This document shows, piece after piece, positions 25,918 to 34,997 of a stretch of DNA of 64,000 bases. The position numbers and the translations under genes are program-made. The notes under the pieces are model-generated. The model saw only the letters and a program-made list of their open reading frames with translations. It made no database searches and had not been told where the DNA came from. How positions within the stretch are numbered: the first letter of the stretch is position 1; the number at the start of each line of letters is the position of its first letter. The DNA is from Pyrococcus kukulkanii (GTDB taxonomy: Archaea > Methanobacteriota_B > Thermococci > Thermococcales > Thermococcaceae): positions 1,488,001 to 1,552,000 of the forward strand of contig NZ_CP010835.1 of assembly GCF_001577775.1 (NCBI RefSeq). The letters are read 5' to 3'.

Positions 25918-26893
25918 GCTGAACTTTTATTTCTTTCCTATTAAAACTCTTTTTAAACGCCTCAACACCATCATCAAGCTTGAAAGTTGAGGTAATCAGA
26001 GGTTTGACCTTAATCATGCCTGATCTTATAAGGTCAATTGCCTTCTCAAATGGTCCACACCTGCTCCCTATTATCCTAACCTCTTTAACAACCATGAGGG
26101 TGTAGTCGAAGCTTACCTGAGCTCCATGAGTGGACTTAGCTGCGATAACTCCCCTTGGCCTCACAAGCTCCAAGGCCAAGTTAAGGGCATTAGGGCTTCC
26201 TGTGGCCTCCACCACGTAGTCAAACCCCTGTCCTTCTGGTGTTTTGCTCTTCGCGTATTCTCTTGCCTCCTTAACCGTAATGACGTCAACGAACTTCTCC
26301 GCTATCTTCCTCTTCGGGGAATCTTCCCTTGCTATTGCAACGACGTTAGGAGTTATCAGCCTGATAAGTTGGGCAGAGAGAAGACCTATGGTTCCTATTC
26401 CCAGGATGGCAACCCTATCCGAGGGTTTTAGCGGTTGCATTTCAAGCATCTCAACAACCGCGGCCAAAGGCTCAACAAAAGCCCCCTCTCCCCAGGATAA
26501 ACCTTCTATGCTGTGAAGGAGGTGAGGTTTAGTCAGAACGTACTCTGCCATTCCCCCATCAATGCTGATCCCTATTGTTTCCCTGTACGGGCAGTGTGTA
26601 GGCATTCCGTGTTTGCAGTACCAGCACTTCTCGCAGTTGACGTTTATTTCAGTTGTGACTTTCATTCCTTCGAGGTGCTCCATTCCTGGAGCCTCGTCAA
26701 CTATTCCGGCGATCTCATGTCCAGGGATAAGGGGTAACTTTGGTGGAACGTACGTTCCCTTGTAGAAAGCCTTGTCTGTTCCGCAGATTCCTACTCTTTT
26801 CACCTTAATCCTAACCCACCCTTTATCGGGAGCTGGATCCGCAACCTCTTCAAGCTTTATCTCCCCCGGTTTATGGAGAACGAGAGCTTTCAT
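25907..26893 (-). CDS. Zinc-containing medium-chain alcohol dehydrogenase
   Basis: A 328-residue MDR protein. Catalytic zinc ligands are Cys in VGICGTDKAFY and His-Glu in LPLIPGHEIAG; the structural zinc has four Cys in NCEKCWYCKHGMPTHC. The NAD(P) fold has the GxGxxG-like VAILGIGTIGLLSAQL. Sequence layout resembles glucose or threonine dehydrogenases of Thermococcales, but the substrate is not certain. Its ATG overlaps the stop of the upstream DUF257 gene by 4 bp, so it is translated with the DUF257 pair. Confidence 0.9.
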   Translation of the reverse strand: MKALVLHKPGEIKLEEVADPAPDKGWVRIKVKRVGICGTDKAFYKGTYVPPKLPLIPGHEIAGIVDEAPGMEHLEGMKVTTEINVNCEKCWYCKHGMPTHCPYRETIGISIDGGMAEYVLTKPHLLHSIEGLSWGEGAFVEPLAAVVEMLEMQPLKPSDRVAILGIGTIGLLSAQLIRLITPNVVAIAREDSPKRKIAEKFVDVITVKEAREYAKSKTPEGQGFDYVVEATGSPNALNLALELVRPRGVIAAKSTHGAQVSFDYTLMVVKEVRIIGSRCGPFEKAIDLIRSGMIKVKPLITSTFKLDDGVEAFKKSFNRKEIKVQLTP

Positions 26894-27507
26894 TTTACCA
26901 CCTTCATTTCGAGGCCTTCCTCTTCAAGGTTTATCGATTTAAGGACTTTGACAGTCCCATCGTCTTGTACTCTTAAGACCCTTGTAGCTATCTCCTCAAA
27001 GAGTGCAAGGTACCTTTTCTCAGTTAGTTCATAATTCATGAAAACGAATGCAGTCCTTAGAGGATTGCCTATGAGCGTTGTTGGTACTGCGAGAACTTCG
27101 TTGAGGAGGTAGGGATCATAATCGTACCTTGCGAGGAGCTTTTCGTGGTTTAATGTAACTGCTATCGCTCCTGGGACTTCTTTGTAAGTTGATACAAGTG
27201 CCTTGAAGAAGTTTATCATTAAAACTACTGGATCCTTGTACGGATCCATGTCGAGTATTATTTTGCCCCACCTAGAGGAACCACCAACTTTAATTCTCTT
27301 TATCTTCTCCGTGGGGATTTCTTTACCTGAGAATTTCAGCCATCTAATCACGTGAAGTCCAGAGTCAAGAAAGTCAGTTACCACAAGTCTTTCCCATCTC
27401 TCTTCGCCGATTTTATAGAATATCTCTGGGTAGGGGGATAGTGAGGAGTACTCCACTAATACTATCTCTCCAGGTTTGGCTAATCTAACGTACTCCTCAA
27501 TCTCCAT
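26890..27507 (-). CDS. DUF257 family protein
   Basis: A 205-residue member of DUF257, a family described from Pyrococcus. The opening AKPGEIVLVEYSSLSPYPEI (G-E-x-V-L-x-E-Y) is the hallmark; DMDPYKDPVVLMINFFKAL and AIAVTLNHEKLLARYDYD follow the same pattern. It looks like a RecA/KaiC-like fold without a Walker A motif, which is my interpretation. Function unknown. It is the middle gene of a unit with another DUF257 protein and an alcohol dehydrogenase. Confidence 0.85.
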   Translation of the reverse strand: MEIEEYVRLAKPGEIVLVEYSSLSPYPEIFYKIGEERWERLVVTDFLDSGLHVIRWLKFSGKEIPTEKIKRIKVGGSSRWGKIILDMDPYKDPVVLMINFFKALVSTYKEVPGAIAVTLNHEKLLARYDYDPYLLNEVLAVPTTLIGNPLRTAFVFMNYELTEKRYLALFEEIATRVLRVQDDGTVKVLKSINLEEEGLEMKVVK

Positions 27508-27513
27508 TCTTTA

Positions 27514-28089
27514 TCACCTAACGAGCACGTTTTGGTATTTGTCTACTCTCAAAACGCAGTCTGCAATCTCTTCGAGCCCCTTCCTGAAGTATTTTGACGA
27601 TGCACCTATGTTGAGAAAGAGAAATGCAACTCTCCCTGACTCTTGTAGGTGCCTCCTTCCTATCACTTCAAAGTACGCTTCGATCTTTGTAATATCTGGT
27701 TTTATCTGATTCAAGAACTTGTGAAGGCCAAGGATGATTAGCGTTTTCCTCTCCTCGCTTGAAATTTTCTTGTAGACCTCCCAGTACTTGCCGATGTGAT
27801 GTGTAAAATCCTCAAACTCGTCTATCTTCCCAAGTAGTTCTCCAACAGTTGCCCTACCTCCTTCTTTAATTACTTTCAAATCATCTACTTTAATTTTAAA
27901 CCCTTGCAATTTAAGTTGTTGAACAAACACCTGGAGGGAGTCTTTGATGTCTACAACTACTGGCGTTACGCCTTTTTCTTTGAAGAACGTGAGTATCTCA
28001 AGAAAAGCTCTTTCAGGATGGTCACTTGGTTGGTATTCGATGAGAATCATGCCCTCATTAAGACTCTCAAGGAATTCTCTAAGTCTCAT
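27514..28089 (-). CDS. DUF257 family protein
   Basis: A 191-residue DUF257 paralogue. It opens LNEGMILIEYQPSDHPERAF, the same hallmark as its neighbour, then VVVDIKDSLQVFVQQLKLQG and RKTLIILGLHKFLNQIKPDI. The two share the fold but are distant. It is first in the unit; a gap of 6 bp leads into the second gene. A TTTAAATATTT promoter element lies about 45 bp upstream of the ATG. Function unknown. Confidence 0.83.
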   Translation of the reverse strand: MRLREFLESLNEGMILIEYQPSDHPERAFLEILTFFKEKGVTPVVVDIKDSLQVFVQQLKLQGFKIKVDDLKVIKEGGRATVGELLGKIDEFEDFTHHIGKYWEVYKKISSEERKTLIILGLHKFLNQIKPDITKIEAYFEVIGRRHLQESGRVAFLFLNIGASSKYFRKGLEEIADCVLRVDKYQNVLVR

Positions 28090-28241
28090 TTTTTAACATC
28101 CCTCCTCATATGGTTAATTGCCTTTGAACTTTAAATATTTTCCAAGGTAGCATAAGGCATACAAATAAACTGAAAATGGATAAAGTGCGCTAATTGTCTA
28201 TTCAACTATATCTGAGCATGTTCTAATTTTGAGGACTTTAA

Positions 28242-28500
28242 ATGATAGTAGAGTTTAAAATTCTCGTTAACAGTATCTTTGACTTTCTGGTTGCTGCATC
28301 CATTGCCTTCATTATTACCGTCCTTATTTTTCCCTCTTCCAGTTCAAATATACCTCGATTGTTGTCCCTCCTGGCGTTACGACCATATCCCTTATCTCTG
28401 CAGGATGATCTCCGGTCCAAGGAGGGTTTGGGCAGCAGCTAGCCTTGCTATGTCCCTGGGGAGGCTCCCCCGTATCCATGTACTCTTCTTCAATTCTGAG
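28242..28500 (-). pseudogene. proC: Relic of proC (pyrroline-5-carboxylate reductase), C-terminal part
   Basis: The reverse strand holds the C-terminal region of ProC in pieces: GSLPRDIARLAAAQTLLG (the SGLPRD helix), then after a small internal deletion GDHPAEIRDMVVTPGGTTI, which is the family signature (R-D-M-V-x-T-P-G-G-T-T), and after a frame change RGIFELEEGKIRTVIMKAMD and AATRKSKILLTRI. All are in the order of the real enzyme, covering its last 90 or so residues. No N-terminal NADPH domain is present. ProC makes proline from pyrroline-5-carboxylate; this copy cannot. It lies alone in a gap between DUF257 and the cassette. Confidence 0.85.
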
Positions 28501-28570
28501 GCACTTTCCAAATAAAAAAGGAACAGAAGTGGAATAGATTTTATTTTAGTATCAGGTTTTCTGTAAAGTT

Positions 28571-30309
28571 TTATGAGGTATTGGGGTTAGATGATAGGAA
28601 TTCTGAAAGTTCTTTGAGGTATTTTCTCAGGTCAAGGAGTTCCATGTTCCTTAAATCCATTGTGTAAAAGCTAACGTCTATTCCTGGGTACCTCTTCTTG
28701 AGTATTTTGAGGAGCTTTAAGAAGTCATCTGCATGAATAAATGCTGTGATTGGCTCAACAACTATTTTTACTCTCCCTGGGATCCCTGAATATTTCTGTA
28801 TTGTTTTGTGTATTTTGTGGAAGCCTTCTTCAAACAGGGTTTCTGCCTCGTAAAATTCATCCTCGAAGATTACATCTGGAACTATTGTTCCAAATGGCTC
28901 TTCTGTTCTTATCCTCTCCAAAATCTCACCAATGTCTTTTATTCCCCTCTTCACGAGCTCTTTAATTAACGTTGAAACTATGAATGCCTTTATTCTTAGG
29001 TGATCCTTGCTCTCGTTTTCTCCCTCCCGGATTATTCCCAGGGTGTGGTAGTACTCGTTGACAAGTTTCTCCAGCTTGTCTTCGTAGAGCTTTGACGTTT
29101 CGTTGAAGATAGTGTCTTGATCAATTCCTGGGGCAACGTCCTTTACAATGATGTTCCCCAGGATAAGCTTTGTTAACATCTTTTTCTCCTTAAAAGATAG
29201 TTTCCTTGGGGTTATCTCGACGATCTTTGCAACCCTTTGAAGTTGCCAGTTGACTTCTTCAAGAAGCCTCCGGTATTTCTCAAATACTTTCTCGTCTTTG
29301 GTGTAGAATATTATTATCCCCTTTCTACCGTGGAATATTGCCCACAACCTATCTGCGAGGAGCTCCTTGTTTATTTCTCCCTCTGAATCAACGTCAACTA
29401 CGAAAATTTTGCCTTCATCGAGCCATCTTTCAACTTCTCTTTTGCTCCACTCGTCCTTAAGCGTTAGCTTCTTTATATCTGGAATTCCTCCTTTCTTTTC
29501 CCGGTAAATTCTTATGAGTATCTCCTCGAATAAGTGAATGTAACTTTCATCCTGGGGATCCTTGAATAAGATTATTAGAGGCTCTGGAGCATCTTTTAGG
29601 GCTCCTGCTCCCCCACCGAATAAAAATTCCAATGGCTTGATGGGGGTTCTTGGTAGCTCTATTTCTTTACTTTCTTCTACTCTAGAGGTTCTTTCCCCTG
29701 TTTCTGTCACAGCAACATGTATTGTGCTTGTGTCAAGAGATTCCTGGGCAAAAGCTTGATAGCTCTCCTTAAATTTTATTTTTGGAATTATAAGAGCACT
29801 TTTAGTTCCCAGGAACATTTTGGAATCTAGCGACTCATCTCTAATATCGATTTTGTGCTTTGGGAATATTACATGGGGAGTTGCCAATTCCCTTTTTAGG
29901 TCCTTGATTGTATAGTTAAGATTCTCGCTCGTAAAGTTCGCAACAAAATCTCTAAACTCAAGTTTGGGGGTTTAATGTGGGTTGATCTCTGGGTAGAATA
30001 AACTGTCTCGTCTATGTCACTTTCTAGGAAAATTAGGGATTTAGGGAGAAGTCTAAGTTTGGGGACTTTAATCAGTTTTACTTGCGTGTTGTATTTTGTC
30101 TCTAAAACTTCTCTTTCAAAATTAAAAATGGAAGAAACAAATTGTATCTTTGGAATTTTTGGTTCTTGGGGTCTAAATGATCCCTTCACTATTGAAATAT
30201 GGCTCACTGCTTGAGGTCTAACTTCGACCGCTGTCTTTCCTCTGTGTCTTCTTTTTTCTTCTTCTATTTCTTCCTTAGTATATTCGTATCTTTGCTCTTG
30301 TTTTGGCAT
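28571..30309 (-). pseudogene. Repeat-containing protein with nuclease-like C terminus, one frameshift
   Basis: Two frames join into one protein of about 580 residues. From the ATG at 30309 the first codes for a basic start (MPKQEQRYEYTKEEIEEEKR) and repeats; at the C5 run (29966-29970) the frame changes and reads PKLEFRDFVANFTSENLNYT, another repeat. At least five units of about 30-40 residues share P-x-I/L-x-F...F...E-x-L/I-D...Y-x-T. Then come an alpha/beta domain (PEPLIILFKDPQDESYIHLF) and a C-terminal part with IVPDVIFEDEFYEAETLFEE, which resembles a PD-(D/E)XK core but lacks the usual lysine. I do not recognise the family. It starts inside the stop of the 420-residue gene, so the two are coupled. 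Confidence 0.65.
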
Positions 30310-31571
30310 TAAAACCACCGCTCTGGATCTTTCACATTGTTAGAGACAACCCAGGAGAAATAGTATATGTTACTTGAGATCTCCTCGTCTCCCCCTTCGA
30401 AGATCCCTTTATAATATATCAGGGCGTTCGGATTTTTGTTTGTGGGCATTATCTTCACATTCCCTAGGAGAAGAGGAGGAGCGAGTATATCAAGAAGTCT
30501 TAAAAGTGAAAATTCCCCTTTGTAATCCCTTGAATTTCTTGATCCTGCTTCGTAGTGGATCTTCGTGATGATAGAACCTCTAAGTATTAATATGTAATAA
30601 TTAGTTCCGATTCTTCCCGGCTTTATTGCCTCCTTAAACTCGTTAGGAACTTTTTCTATTTCCTGCCAGTCCTTTAGTGCCTCCTTCACAGTCTTTGCAT
30701 ATGTGATAAGCAAATCTTCGGGCGAGGGTGTTATAAACTTAAAAACTTCCAGAGTTCTTTCTGCTACTTTTCTAAAGTACCAATAGTCATGAAAGCTGAA
30801 ATAGACCCAAAGTGTTGTTTGCATTTTATATATCCTGTTTGCTATTCCTCCAATTTTGTGGCTCCAAATTGTATACTCTTTCCTTAGTTTCTCGCTATCA
30901 ACTGGTGGTATAAATATAGGCTCTAAACCCAGGAGGTCTGAAAGTTTCTCAAACACTTCGGGTAGCTTTGTATACATTGACTTAAGTGCTCTCCAGTGGG
31001 CGTCATTTGTCGTAAGTATGAAGAAAGTGTATGGGTTGTAGGGGACGCTGAATGATACACTTGCCTCGTATAGTTCCTTTAAAACGTCAAGAAGCTTATT
31101 TGGTGAAGTAAGTATCTCACCCGTGGGTGTTACCTCTACTTTTGTCCCTGATTTCTCAAGAACCCCTGAACTTAGATCGTTTAACTTTTCAATTAGCTTC
31201 AAAAAGCCACTTTCCTCTTTCTCTTTCAATACCTCCACACCTTCAAGTCCCTCCTCTCCAACGGCCTCAACAGCACTAACGAACTCTGTGGGCTCAACGT
31301 ATATCCCATACATCAGCCTTATCAGCTTAGCCAAGCTCCTCTCTGTGTAGTTTCCGCTTTCATCTATCCCTCCAACGAAAAACTTCAGAACCCTCTCGTC
31401 ATCCTCTTTTACGGCCTTAAGAGACTTTCCAACGTACCTCTCAAGGTAATCCTTCAGCTTGAGAAGTGTTTTTGTAGTGGAGTATATCGGCCCTATGTAA
31501 TCTCTAATGTATTTCTTCCAAGCCTCAACGTTCCAGTACTCGAACCCAGGAATCTCTTCATAGTAACCCAT
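30309..31571 (-). CDS. Protein of unknown function, partner of the repeat/nuclease-like gene
   Basis: A 420-residue cytoplasmic protein that I do not recognise. It has no membrane segment, no Walker motif and no obvious metal site. It is helical at the start (YNVEAW-like GFEYWNVEAWKKYIRDYIGP, LLKLKDYLERYVGKSLKAVK) and has a long central helical region rich in aromatic residues (MQTTLWVYFSFHDYWYFRKV). The C-terminal 100 residues are mixed (GTNYYILILRGSIITKIHYE). Its TAA overlaps the ATG of the next gene by one base (TAATG), so they are co-translated. A TTTAATATTT promoter element lies upstream. Confidence 0.7.
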   Translation of the reverse strand: MGYYEEIPGFEYWNVEAWKKYIRDYIGPIYSTTKTLLKLKDYLERYVGKSLKAVKEDDERVLKFFVGGIDESGNYTERSLAKLIRLMYGIYVEPTEFVSAVEAVGEEGLEGVEVLKEKEESGFLKLIEKLNDLSSGVLEKSGTKVEVTPTGEILTSPNKLLDVLKELYEASVSFSVPYNPYTFFILTTNDAHWRALKSMYTKLPEVFEKLSDLLGLEPIFIPPVDSEKLRKEYTIWSHKIGGIANRIYKMQTTLWVYFSFHDYWYFRKVAERTLEVFKFITPSPEDLLITYAKTVKEALKDWQEIEKVPNEFKEAIKPGRIGTNYYILILRGSIITKIHYEAGSRNSRDYKGEFSLLRLLDILAPPLLLGNVKIMPTNKNPNALIYYKGIFEGGDEEISSNIYYFSWVVSNNVKDPERWF

Positions 31572-31624
31572 GTTTGCCCCCAGGATTAGTATCCTCAGGA
31601 AATATTAAAGGTTTGATCATTTGA

Positions 31625-32041
31625 TCACTCGAGCATGCCCTCGAGCTCGAGCTTCTTTTTCTGCCTAAGGAATATCACGGGAACTCCGGCCTCCCTAAGC
31701 CTCTTCCTGAGCTTTTTATCGTTGGTGCACACTATAACGTTATCATTGGCTATCGCGTACTCATATAGTAGCTCATCTGTAGTCTTTGACATGAACTCCC
31801 CAATATATACGACGGGAAACCTCTCGGCAAGCTTTAGGGCCATCCTTGCCGCCATCAGGTCTTTTCCTCTAACCTTGCCCTCTTTGATTATAGTTTTGAG
31901 CTCCTCAAGAACGACGTTTGGAATGGCAACCTGATACTTCACATCAAGTATCCTGTCGAATTCCGAAATTATATCCACCCCGAACTGCCCGGGAATGAAA
32001 AGAAAATTTGTATCGGGGAGAACGAGCCAAACCTTCCTCAT
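31625..32041 (-). CDS. PIN domain protein, Fcf1/Utp24-like
   Basis: A 138-residue PIN nuclease. The acidic residues are in LVLPDTNFLFIPG, VVLEELKTI and VCTNDKKLRKRLREAG. In eukaryotes Fcf1/Utp24 processes 18S rRNA precursors; in archaea this gene accompanies aIF2 gamma, which suggests a role in rRNA maturation. The start is at 32041, three bases past the aIF2 gamma stop (TAG at 32044-32046), with AGGGAAT as ribosome site. A longer frame upstream lies inside aIF2 gamma and is not used. Confidence 0.85.
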   Translation of the reverse strand: MRKVWLVLPDTNFLFIPGQFGVDIISEFDRILDVKYQVAIPNVVLEELKTIIKEGKVRGKDLMAARMALKLAERFPVVYIGEFMSKTTDELLYEYAIANDNVIVCTNDKKLRKRLREAGVPVIFLRQKKKLELEGMLE

Positions 32042-32043
32042 GT

Positions 32044-33279
32044 CTATTCCCTTATGAATCCGTAACCTATGAGCCTCCACCTTGAGCCTATCTGCCTACT
32101 TATTGCCACTCTATCCCCGGGCTCTGCGCACACTGGTATCTGGAGCTTTAATTCTATCTCATCCTTTCCTAAGCCTGTAACAAGGCCCATCGTTCTTGCG
32201 GTTCCAACGTTCAATAGTAGCACTTCCTTCCTCTTGATTGGCTCTACCTTTAATTCTTGCTCAGTTCCAACGACCCTCTCGAGCAGGTGAACCTCAAGCC
32301 TAAGCTCCTCCCACACCGGTGGAAGCTTTCCGGGCTTTCCAACAACGTTACCTGCCATCAGGTCGCCCTTGGTTAAGTATGGATCGAGCTTTGTTCCAAC
32401 TCCGACTAAACCTCCTGGGTAGGCCTCCTCGACGAACTTTCCTCCGGCTTGGAGAGAAACTATCTCAGTCGTTATTGGCTCGTACTTTATCCTTCCGTGC
32501 TCCTCGTAGGGTACTCCAGGCCTTATCTCAATCTCATCCCCAACCTTGAGCTTACCCTGGACTATCGAACCTCCAAGAACTCCACCGACAAGCTTCTCCG
32601 GTGGTGTTCCTGGCTTATTAACGTCGAAGCTTCTAAGAACTAACATCTTCGGTGGCTTGTTGGGATCCCTCTTTGGCGTTGGTATGAAGTCCTCGATGGC
32701 CTTCACGAGAACATCTATGTTCGCACCGTGAAGTGCTGAGATCGGAATTATCGGGGCGTTTTCCGCTACAGTCCCTTTTATGAACTCCTTAATCTGCCTG
32801 TAGTTCTCCAAGGCCTTCTCTCTGTCCACGAGCTCTATCTTGTTCTGAGCTATGATTATGTTCTTCTGTCCGATTATCTGGAGGGCCATCAGGTGCTCTC
32901 TAGTCTGAGGCCTTGGACAGGGCTCGTTTGCGGCTATAACCAAGATTGCCCCGTCCATCAGGGAAGCTCCAGCGAGCATCGTTGTCATCAATGCCTCGTG
33001 ACCCGGGGCGTCTATGAACGAAACCCTCCTAACGAACTCGGTTTCATGGCCACAGTAGGGGCAGACTGGGGAGGTTGAGTACCTTCCACAGTTAGGGCAC
33101 TTCCTTATCTCTGCGTCCGCGAACCCTATCTTAATCGTAATTCCTCTCCTGAGCTCTTCGCTGTGTGTGTCCGTCCAAACTCCCGTTAGGGCCTTTGTTA
33201 GTGTGGTTTTACCGTGGTCAACGTGACCAACCATTCCTATATTGACCTCTGCCTGCTTTGTCTTCCTCTCCTCTGACAT
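32044..33279 (-). CDS. eif2g: Translation initiation factor aIF2 gamma subunit
   Basis: A 411-residue GTPase. G1 is [20 protein letters not shown]3 [12 protein letters not shown]4 [11 protein letters not shown]5 ISALHG; the zinc knuckle [17 protein letters not shown] is intact. Domains II and III follow with the usual [13 protein letters not shown] and [14 protein letters not shown]. It binds initiator Met-tRNA with alpha and beta. Length equals that of the P. abyssi protein when started at [15 protein letters not shown], which has GGAGGCG ahead; the longer frame is probably not used. It forms an operon with the PIN gene. Confidence 0.97.
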
Positions 33280-33353
33280 GGCTCTCGCCTCCAGAAGAGT
33301 TTCGACTAAGTCCATTTAATAGCTTTATCCCAAGGGAAAATTTGGAAAAGAGG

Positions 33354-34370
33354 TTAGTGCTTTATGAACCTGCCCTCAAGGCCCGTCCCGGAGGGATCAA
33401 CGTCGTCCCTCATGATCAATACAACCCTGCTCGGCTCGTACTCGTCCTCTATGTGGTATCCTGGGAGGTGCTTTACTAGGGCCTCTGCGAACTTCCTTAT
33501 GTCATCGTGGCTCGGCATGTTGTTTATCGTTAGCCTGTTCCTTGAATAACCAACGAACATGTAGGCCTTTGCCTCAACGAACATTGGCTTAGCCTTGAGG
33601 ATCAGCTTCGCGTAGCCCTCCGGGTTGTGCATGTTCTCTCCCTTCACTAGGGTTAGCCTCACAACGGTTCTAGTTTGAATTCCGTTCATGAGCTCGAGGA
33701 ACTCCTTTATCCTCTCCCATCCATCGGGTATCATTGGGATGTTGACCCTATTGTACGTTTCAATGTCAGGGGCTGTAATTGAGACGTAGAGCTGGGTTGG
33801 TAGCTTGTCCTCCCTTATCATCTCCTCGAGCCTCTCGGGAACTGTTCCGTTGGTGACTATGAACGTAGTGAAGCCCCTCTTGTGGAACTCTTCAACTAAA
33901 TCCCCCATGTAGGGATAGAGCATTGGCTCTCCCGACAAACTAATTGCTGCATGCCTTGGATACCATGCCTCTTCGAATTTCTTTTTGTCGACCTTTGGAT
34001 TGCCTTTGTATCCAACTAAGAGCTTCCTCTGGGCTTTGATGCTCTCCTCCACGATGAACGCTGGATCATCCCAGGGTTGGGGCAGTTCAGTTCCTAGGAA
34101 TGTCTCCATTGGGCGCCAGCAGAATATGCAGTTGTGGGTGCACCAAGCTAAAACTGGCGTCATCTGAAGGCACCTGTGCGAGTGTATTCCATAGAACTTC
34201 TGTTTGTAGCAGAACCTACCCTCGGTTAGGCTCTTCTTGAGCCAGTGGCATAGCTTAACTCCGCTGTGCCTTCCCACTAGTTCGTAGTGTTGCTTTCTAA
34301 AGAGGTTGGCTATCTCGGGCGGCATGTTCGGATTAGCTTGAACCGTAATCTTTCCGGGCTTTATCTCCAT
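33354..34370 (-). CDS. taw1: tRNA 4-demethylwyosine synthase
   Basis: A 338-residue radical SAM enzyme. The radical SAM cluster is CTHNCIFCWRP (C-x3-C-x2-C); a second cluster is held by Cys residues nearer the N terminus in VKLCHWLKKSL, GRFCYKQKFYG and HRCLQMTP. ISLSGEPMLYP matches the SAM-binding GGE region. Taw1 builds the tricyclic ring of wyosine at G37 of tRNA-Phe from N1-methylguanosine and pyruvate. The ATG at 34370 has GGAGGTGA six bases before it. It lies in the same direction as aIF2 gamma but with a 74-bp gap. Confidence 0.95.
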   Translation of the reverse strand: MEIKPGKITVQANPNMPPEIANLFRKQHYELVGRHSGVKLCHWLKKSLTEGRFCYKQKFYGIHSHRCLQMTPVLAWCTHNCIFCWRPMETFLGTELPQPWDDPAFIVEESIKAQRKLLVGYKGNPKVDKKKFEEAWYPRHAAISLSGEPMLYPYMGDLVEEFHKRGFTTFIVTNGTVPERLEEMIREDKLPTQLYVSITAPDIETYNRVNIPMIPDGWERIKEFLELMNGIQTRTVVRLTLVKGENMHNPEGYAKLILKAKPMFVEAKAYMFVGYSRNRLTINNMPSHDDIRKFAEALVKHLPGYHIEDEYEPSRVVLIMRDDVDPSGTGLEGRFIKH

Positions 34371-34496
34371 CTCTCTCACCTCCGATTAGGCTCGCCTAAC
34401 TCATGGTGGATTCCATTATTTTAAAAATCTAATGTGAAGTGCAATTCATAAAAAATGTGTTAAAAGTCCTATCCAATGATATCTCTGGTGATAACC

Positions 34497-34997
34497 ATGA
34501 GGATCCTGATTCTGAGTGCCGACCAGTTTGAAGATGTAGAGCTGATATATCCCTACCACAGGCTCAAGGAGGAGGGACATGAGGTTGTAGTTGCGAGCTT
34601 CAAGAGGGGAGCTATCACCGGAAAGCATGGATATACAGTGAACGTTGACTTGGCCTTTGACGAAGTTAATCCTGACGATTTTGACGCCCTCATCCTTCCG
34701 GGCGGAAGGGCCCCAGAGCGCGTGAGGCTGAACGAGAAGGCAGTGGAAATTGCGAGAAAGATGTTCAGTGAGGGCAAGCCAGTTGCGAGCATCTGCCACG
34801 GGCCTCAGATACTCATCTCGGCTGGAGTTCTAAAGGGCAGGAAGGGAACGAGCTACCCAGGAATTAAGGACGACATGATAAACGCTGGAGTCGAGTGGGT
34901 TGATTCTGAGGTTGTTGTTGATGGCAACTGGGTGAGCTCGAGGGTTCCTGCAGACTTATACGCATGGATGAGGGAGTTCGTTAAACTACTTAAGTGA
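34497..34997 (+). CDS. pfpI: Intracellular protease PfpI (DJ-1/PfpI family)
   Basis: A 166-residue DJ-1/PfpI protein with catalytic C100-H101 in ASICHGPQILISAG and E74 in GGRAPERVRLNEKA, matching the E74-C100-H101 set of the P. horikoshii homologue. The sequence is nearly that of known PfpI proteins, with the same 166-residue length. It forms hexamers with proteolytic and possibly deglycase activity in the cytoplasm. A GGTGAT site precedes the ATG at 34497; a longer frame exists upstream but is unlikely. A single gene divergent from taw1. Confidence 0.95.
   Translation: MRILILSADQFEDVELIYPYHRLKEEGHEVVVASFKRGAITGKHGYTVNVDLAFDEVNPDDFDALILPGGRAPERVRLNEKAVEIARKMFSEGKPVASICHGPQILISAGVLKGRKGTSYPGIKDDMINAGVEWVDSEVVVDGNWVSSRVPADLYAWMREFVKLLK

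Follow-up and report, generated by a model that had tools for sequence, protein, structure and literature searches.

Protease-activated nucleases are an established principle of bacterial defense, in which nuclease–protease pairs are exchanged between systems and the protease unlocks the nuclease (PMC12799240). HamM with its protease, the AVAST equivalents, and the Canu caspase–nuclease all encode the nuclease gene together with a protease gene (PMC12799240). Here we describe a two-gene cassette, genes A and B, at positions 28571–31571 of a 64,000-nucleotide stretch of Pyrococcus kukulkanii (NCBI RefSeq assembly GCF_001577775.1, contig NZ_CP010835.1, positions 1,488,001–1,552,000; the whole stretch is hereafter termed the window). 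Some relatives of this cassette, namely the form II loci described below and one methanogen locus (L113), resemble the bacterial systems in that a putative nuclease gene is encoded with a protease-like gene. In the bacterial pairs, however, a trypsin-like enzyme or a caspase serves as the protease, and HamM has been compared with the ComEC MBL-like nuclease (PMC12799240), whereas the archaeal loci encode a proteasome-like threonine hydrolase, a PD-(D/E)XK-like domain, and an extra partner protein, A, and the form found in the window has no protease. The nuclease–protease pair is the nearest known principle, and A and B may by analogy work in a similar manner, but they are not a member of that group. 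We tentatively propose, with somewhat less than even confidence, that A and B are the two indispensable components of a so far undescribed nuclease effector module of archaea that is sometimes accompanied by a protease and has a role in conflict or defense.

The cassette in the window has the following parts:

30309..31571, minus strand: gene A, partner protein of 420 amino acids, intact (open reading frame call)
28571..30318, minus strand: gene B, split into two frames, 29896–30318 and 28571–29887 (open reading frame call)
29966..29970, minus strand: C5 homopolymer, site of the frame break in B (sequence reading)
29690..30160, minus strand: array of repeats of about 32 amino acids in B, about five units (x-P-x-[IL]-x-F ... 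LD; period test)
29138..29650, minus strand: P-loop/AAA+-like alpha/beta domain of B, without Walker A (Foldseek)
28574..29137, minus strand: C-terminal PD-(D/E)XK-like domain of B, D...ExE signature (invariant residues, topology, weak Pfam matches)
29677..31212, minus strand: replaced (allelic) block, A residues about 120–420 plus the N-terminal repeats of B (DNA comparison with G010, the nearest relative with an intact cassette)

In keeping with the preliminary description of this locus, which had read two coupled genes from the letters, the stop codon of A (TAA) and the start codon of B join as TAATG, with the B ATG at 30309. The frameshift that it had placed in the C5 run is also borne out: one added base at 29966–29970 makes B readable as a single protein, and the B orthologs of relatives are unbroken single frames of 573 (G010), 626 (G006 and G054), and 733 (G017) amino acids, the open frames of intact relatives spanning 573–737 codons overall. 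A programmed frameshift at the C5 run was set aside because B is unbroken in these relatives. Since B is broken in this assembly, this copy of the cassette probably has no activity; elsewhere on the chromosome lies a complete sister operon that includes the hydrolase gene.

A and B are very probably partners, and on sequence grounds they constitute one co-evolving two-gene family. A adjoins B at all B loci, save remnants and loci cut by contig ends, and the main clades are shared between the A tree and the B tree. Comparison of the window with G010 reveals a mosaic. The DNA of the two is about 94% identical at 34383–31213 and again at 29676–28572, whereas the intervening 1.5 kb or so (31212–29677) is unalignable. 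Correspondingly, protein identity is 89% in A residues 1–119, 36% from A residue 120 to the end, 30% in the N-terminal part of B, and 94–95% in the rest of B, and the divergence of the replaced parts is about that between different species. At the cassette ends the synonymous divergence (dS) is 0.21–0.23, about the same as in the adjacent aIF2-gamma gene (0.25). It follows that these ends descended together with the chromosome and that replacement of the middle took place in one lineage or the other. The C-terminal two thirds of A and the repeats of B thus differ between these close relatives by replacement as one block, and this block, which spans the gene boundary, points to candidate interacting surfaces.

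The repeat array of B differs in regularity among relatives. In the window copy, the best period is 31 amino acids (p = 0.03 vs shuffles). In arrays of relatives the period is 32 amino acids; their self-alignment scores are 117, 106, and 61, shuffled sequences average about 25–27, and none of 300 shuffles reaches these scores. G006, G054, and G055 give the strongest signal, the window copy a weaker one. In the AlphaFold2 model of the G010 ortholog, the repeat-equivalent region (residues 27–209) has a predicted local distance difference test score (pLDDT) below 50 and is predicted to be disordered, whereas residues 210–570 are modeled with confidence. The repeats are therefore expected, on the basis of the model, to lie in a disordered region and not to form a folded solenoid.

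The middle domain of B has AAA+ proteins as its top Foldseek matches (E 3.5e-4 to 1e-3), with low query TM-scores for the whole model (0.17–0.20), and the Walker A motif GxxxxGK[ST] is absent in every B relative examined. The same domain order, with the P-loop domain ahead of the PD-(D/E)XK-like one, is seen in archaeal ATPase_2/DUF234 proteins (AAA+ plus PD-(D/E)XK), which are abundant in this genome (19 DUF234 matches), and B might thus be a Walker-A-less offshoot of these or of AAA_14/DUF4143 proteins, sharing their function. Such an origin is very unlikely: besides lacking Walker A, B has no detectable profile similarity to the ATPase_2/DUF234 proteins, and its repeat array and its obligate partner A are without counterpart there. 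Descent from ATPase_2/DUF234 was rejected on the hhalign probability of 0.5% against 12 DUF234 proteins of this genome.

The C-terminal domain of B likely has a PD-(D/E)XK-like fold, to judge from its predicted topology and its invariant residues, and the nuclease activity is putative. In the G010 ortholog model, where the block-mean pLDDT of this domain is mostly 87–97, the order of elements is helix–strand–strand–strand–helix–strand (H429–448, E461–463, E474–476, E479–484, H492–499, and E507–512), which is the topology of the PD-(D/E)XK core. Residues K435, D473, E482, E484, and T485 (ortholog numbering) are invariant in all 21 of 21 diverse B members from two phyla; D473 corresponds to about position 28874 of the window and E482 to about 28847. 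Sub-threshold Pfam matches of the domain include CoiA_nuc (0.055), HSDR_N_2 (0.057), and PDDEXK_4 (0.078). Three of the 13 Pfam families weakly matched by members of this domain are of the PD-(D/E)XK kind.

The AlphaFold2 model of A is mostly helical (mean pLDDT 84.8; predicted template modeling score 0.86), and in whole-model Foldseek searches no match was better than E 0.37 against the PDB or E 0.10 against viral models. A is thus a confidently predicted helical protein whose modeled fold has no match in the PDB. Neither A nor B has a match at E<=1 in Pfam or NCBIfam; PADLOC gives nothing above chance for either protein (a PDC-M64B match to B at E 0.02 was judged to be chance), PHROGs has no match for A or for the intact B ortholog, and profile searches against PDB sequences, made from alignments of A, B, and the hydrolase, yielded no informative match. 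A and B belong to no family or system tested. A solved structure could still link B to a known nuclease branch. Even if B has no activity, the family remains a two-protein complex without classification in which the partner has a new fold.

Much of this had been anticipated in the preliminary description. The five or more tandem units that it listed are real by the period test, about five being readable in the window; its remark that it could place the proteins in no family is borne out by Pfam, NCBIfam, PADLOC, and PHROGs; and the helical partner and the modified PD-(D/E)XK core that it suspected agree with the A model and with the predicted topology and invariant D...ExE of B. The structure prediction that it had asked for yielded a nuclease-like C-terminal topology, and the alternative fold that would have spoken against it was not seen in the model. 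Its overall interpretation needs amending in that the repeats are predicted to be disordered, and it had missed both the P-loop/AAA+-like domain of B and an operon, located outside the window, that includes a proteasome homolog.

This operon is the most informative context of the family, which comes in several forms. Of 115 genomes of the phylum, 21 match a B profile; their distribution is patchy, and all belong to two Thermococcaceae genera. In a single class of methanogens, B is detected in 7 of the 58 genomes. A first scan of genome contigs with the hydrolase gave no matches, and a second with B led to methanogen metagenome-assembled genomes (MAGs). Form I consists of A and B alone and is present in the window and in G010, G006, G054, G017, G055, G056, G059, G050, and G063. 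Form II consists of the hydrolase, a gene X, A, and B, and is found as a second copy in the window's own genome (G000) and in G017, G020, G022, and G037; a form II-like locus in G010 (G010:C6) is without X, and in G051 the start of the contig truncates the form II locus. Form III, with longer A and B, occurs in G008, G010, G007, and G023. The A versions of forms I–III constitute one family (hhalign 97.7%). Among the methanogen loci, A and B occur together in L112, L113, L114, and L115 and are broken in L117, and in the MAGs L097 and L098 a shorter A-related protein occupies the A position beside B. The form II operon of the window's genome (L050 8289–12811; G000:C1, about 429–434 kb) is complete and apparently intact, downstream of mannose-phosphate genes; two Pyrococcus relatives (L095, L096) have only B remnants, near what is apparently the same mannose-phosphate gene group. 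Gene X may be dispensable, because X is missing from a form II-like locus (L058 12066–12878) in which the hydrolase gene is placed directly with A and B. Gene X was also considered as a relative of A or A′, with no match.

The first gene of the form II operon matches the Pfam Proteasome family (6.2e-5) and encodes Thr immediately after the start codon, along with D17- and K33-type residues, in six of six Thermococcaceae genomes. It is the most conserved member of the operon, with 84% mean column identity. In the methanogen locus L113, a proteasome-type gene lies directly 3′ of B (Pfam Proteasome 4.5e-17); its product can be aligned with a structurally solved archaeal beta subunit (PDB 3h4p) and belongs to the same subfamily as the form II hydrolases (hhalign 95%, E 2.8e-8). 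The N-terminal Thr, the D17/K33-type residues, and the proteasome profile mark the form II/L113 gene as encoding a proteasome-like N-terminal nucleophile hydrolase. The subfamily occurs in 3 of 58 genomes of the methanogen class, once beside A and B and at least once alone. One methanogen (L147 7603–8355) has it alone, near proteasome-alpha-like and exosome-like genes.

These hydrolases resemble WPH, ACC, and other newly listed proteasome homologs (PMC8665760) in being proteasome-like and of archaeal type, with an N-terminal Thr. For its new groups, a 2021 survey of proteasome homologs reported no genomic context that hinted at a function (PMC8665760), whereas the hydrolase described here is in a conserved operon with A and B. 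As many proteasome homologs beyond the classical proteasome are without known context, the operon of hydrolase and nuclease-like genes provides a testable handle. The operon of Anbu likewise encodes a proteasome homolog beside an unusual helical protein (PMC5666114), but its items are unmatched among the L051 neighbors scanned, and no nuclease-like protein is described in it (PMC5666114).

An AAA+-like domain with a proteasome-like partner recalls unfoldase–peptidase pairs, and B, being without Walker A, resembles an adaptor. A and B might accordingly be a regulated proteolysis complex, in which the P-loop-like and PD-(D/E)XK-like domains of B would be non-catalytic scaffolds and A/B would bring substrates to a proteasome-like hydrolase (in form II the one encoded with them, in forms I and III the proteasome of the cell). 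The hydrolase being the best-conserved member of the form II operon agrees with this explanation. We nevertheless regard it as unlikely: an adjacent protease gene is present in form II and L113 but is missing from most B loci, including the window and forms I and III, and the nuclease-type acidic residues are invariant even in hydrolase-free forms, which is unexpected for a dead scaffold.

For the proposed nuclease effector module, we infer contact between A and the repeats, nuclease activity, protease switching, and a role in defense. Because A is proposed to bind the repeat array of B, A and the repeats would have to match. A would hold or place the nuclease B, and a signal from infection or another foreign element would release or activate B, which would then cut nucleic acid. 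In the sister forms, the proteasome-like threonine hydrolase could switch the nuclease by cleaving A or the disordered repeats of B. The likely role would be in defense, directed at viruses or mobile elements of other kinds, or in a conflict of a related type. It is rather doubtful that a fuller claim holds, namely that archaea have here a new kind of immune or conflict system whose modular nuclease would match a new-fold partner through co-exchanged segments and would be switched by a proteasome-like threonine protease of its own, with a two-gene form of the system in the window. Archaeal immunity is poorly described, and an archaeal system outside the defense catalogs would widen its description.

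Several observations weigh against the effector module. At the Lys position of the classical PD-(D/E)XK motif, B has the invariant Glu E484 (ExE), which makes catalysis uncertain. ExE active sites do exist, e.g., in BamHI, and a nearly invariant Lys (K493) is located in the helix after ExE. The C-terminal domain has no significant PDB profile match, or Foldseek match among those listed, to solved nucleases. The window's form I has no adjacent hydrolase, and the hydrolase also occurs without A and B (G121). The mosaic is known from one close pair (window and G010), searches of plasmids, phages, and viral contigs found no relatives of A or B, and most A–B loci other than the two described next are amid housekeeping genes, outside defense islands.

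One form III pair (L092 778–7051) directly adjoins an Hma/DUF1156–DUF499 defense system, beside HmaB/HmaC (DUF1156 methylase, DUF499 ATPase), although A and B match none of its proteins. The L097 locus adjoins a truncated methylase. Support for A–B from defense islands is thin. Gain, loss, and allele exchange of the cassette, as read from genome comparison, would suit a conflict system.

A and B are clearly protein-coding and under purifying selection. The ratio of nonsynonymous to synonymous divergence (dN/dS) is 0.09–0.23 in most cassette comparisons and 0.57 in the repeat region of one pair; between the window and G010 it is 0.14 in the C-terminal part of B and 0.20 in A residues 1–113. Long-term purifying selection would also be expected of a housekeeping complex for DNA repair or processing in Thermococcales. 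The combination of a PD-(D/E)XK-like with a P-loop-like domain is reminiscent of repair nucleases, including those of the AddB/RecB type. A housekeeping role is nonetheless very unlikely, given that the cassette is absent in most close relatives, broken in several genomes, replaced piecewise, and deleted in the close relative G005, where the first dozen codons of A are fused to the B stop codon as a deletion scar. Broken copies or remnants are present in the window, G059, G050, G063, G046, G020, G005, and G148; some of these are draft assemblies, in which errors are possible.

The breakage bears on a further explanation, that of a stabilizing toxin–antitoxin pair in which B would be the nuclease toxin and A would neutralize it, the pair being maintained through addiction and not for protection against viruses. 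The two genes overlap, A co-varies with the N-terminal region of B, and B is broken while A is intact in the window and G020, all of which speaks for such a pair. In G050, however, the break is in A, and the B that follows it is otherwise open; in addition, A is large (about 400 amino acids) and matches no antitoxin or DNA-binding family, and no plasmid copies were found in the searches, so that this explanation is distinctly unlikely. The loss pattern was rejected as proof of a toxin–antitoxin pair since A and B both break. Against the effector module it likewise counts that this pattern marks neither protein as toxin or antidote.

Upstream of A, one further feature was read from the sequence:

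31602..31609, minus strand: putative TATA-like box TTTAATAT, 31–38 nucleotides upstream of the A ATG

A GGGGG stretch immediately 5′ of the same ATG is a putative ribosome-binding-like element. No RNA families were found within 26500–34500. At 26890–28089 of the window, two adjacent proteins of about 200 amino acids are encoded on the same strand; they are also present in G010, are not members of the cassette, and have no match in an NCBIfam search. G010 has about 3 kb of additional genes between B and the shared downstream region (L041 10276–13682), which again points to turnover at this site. Compared with the flank, where the GC content is 0.49, the cassette is richer in AT, its GC content being 0.38–0.41.
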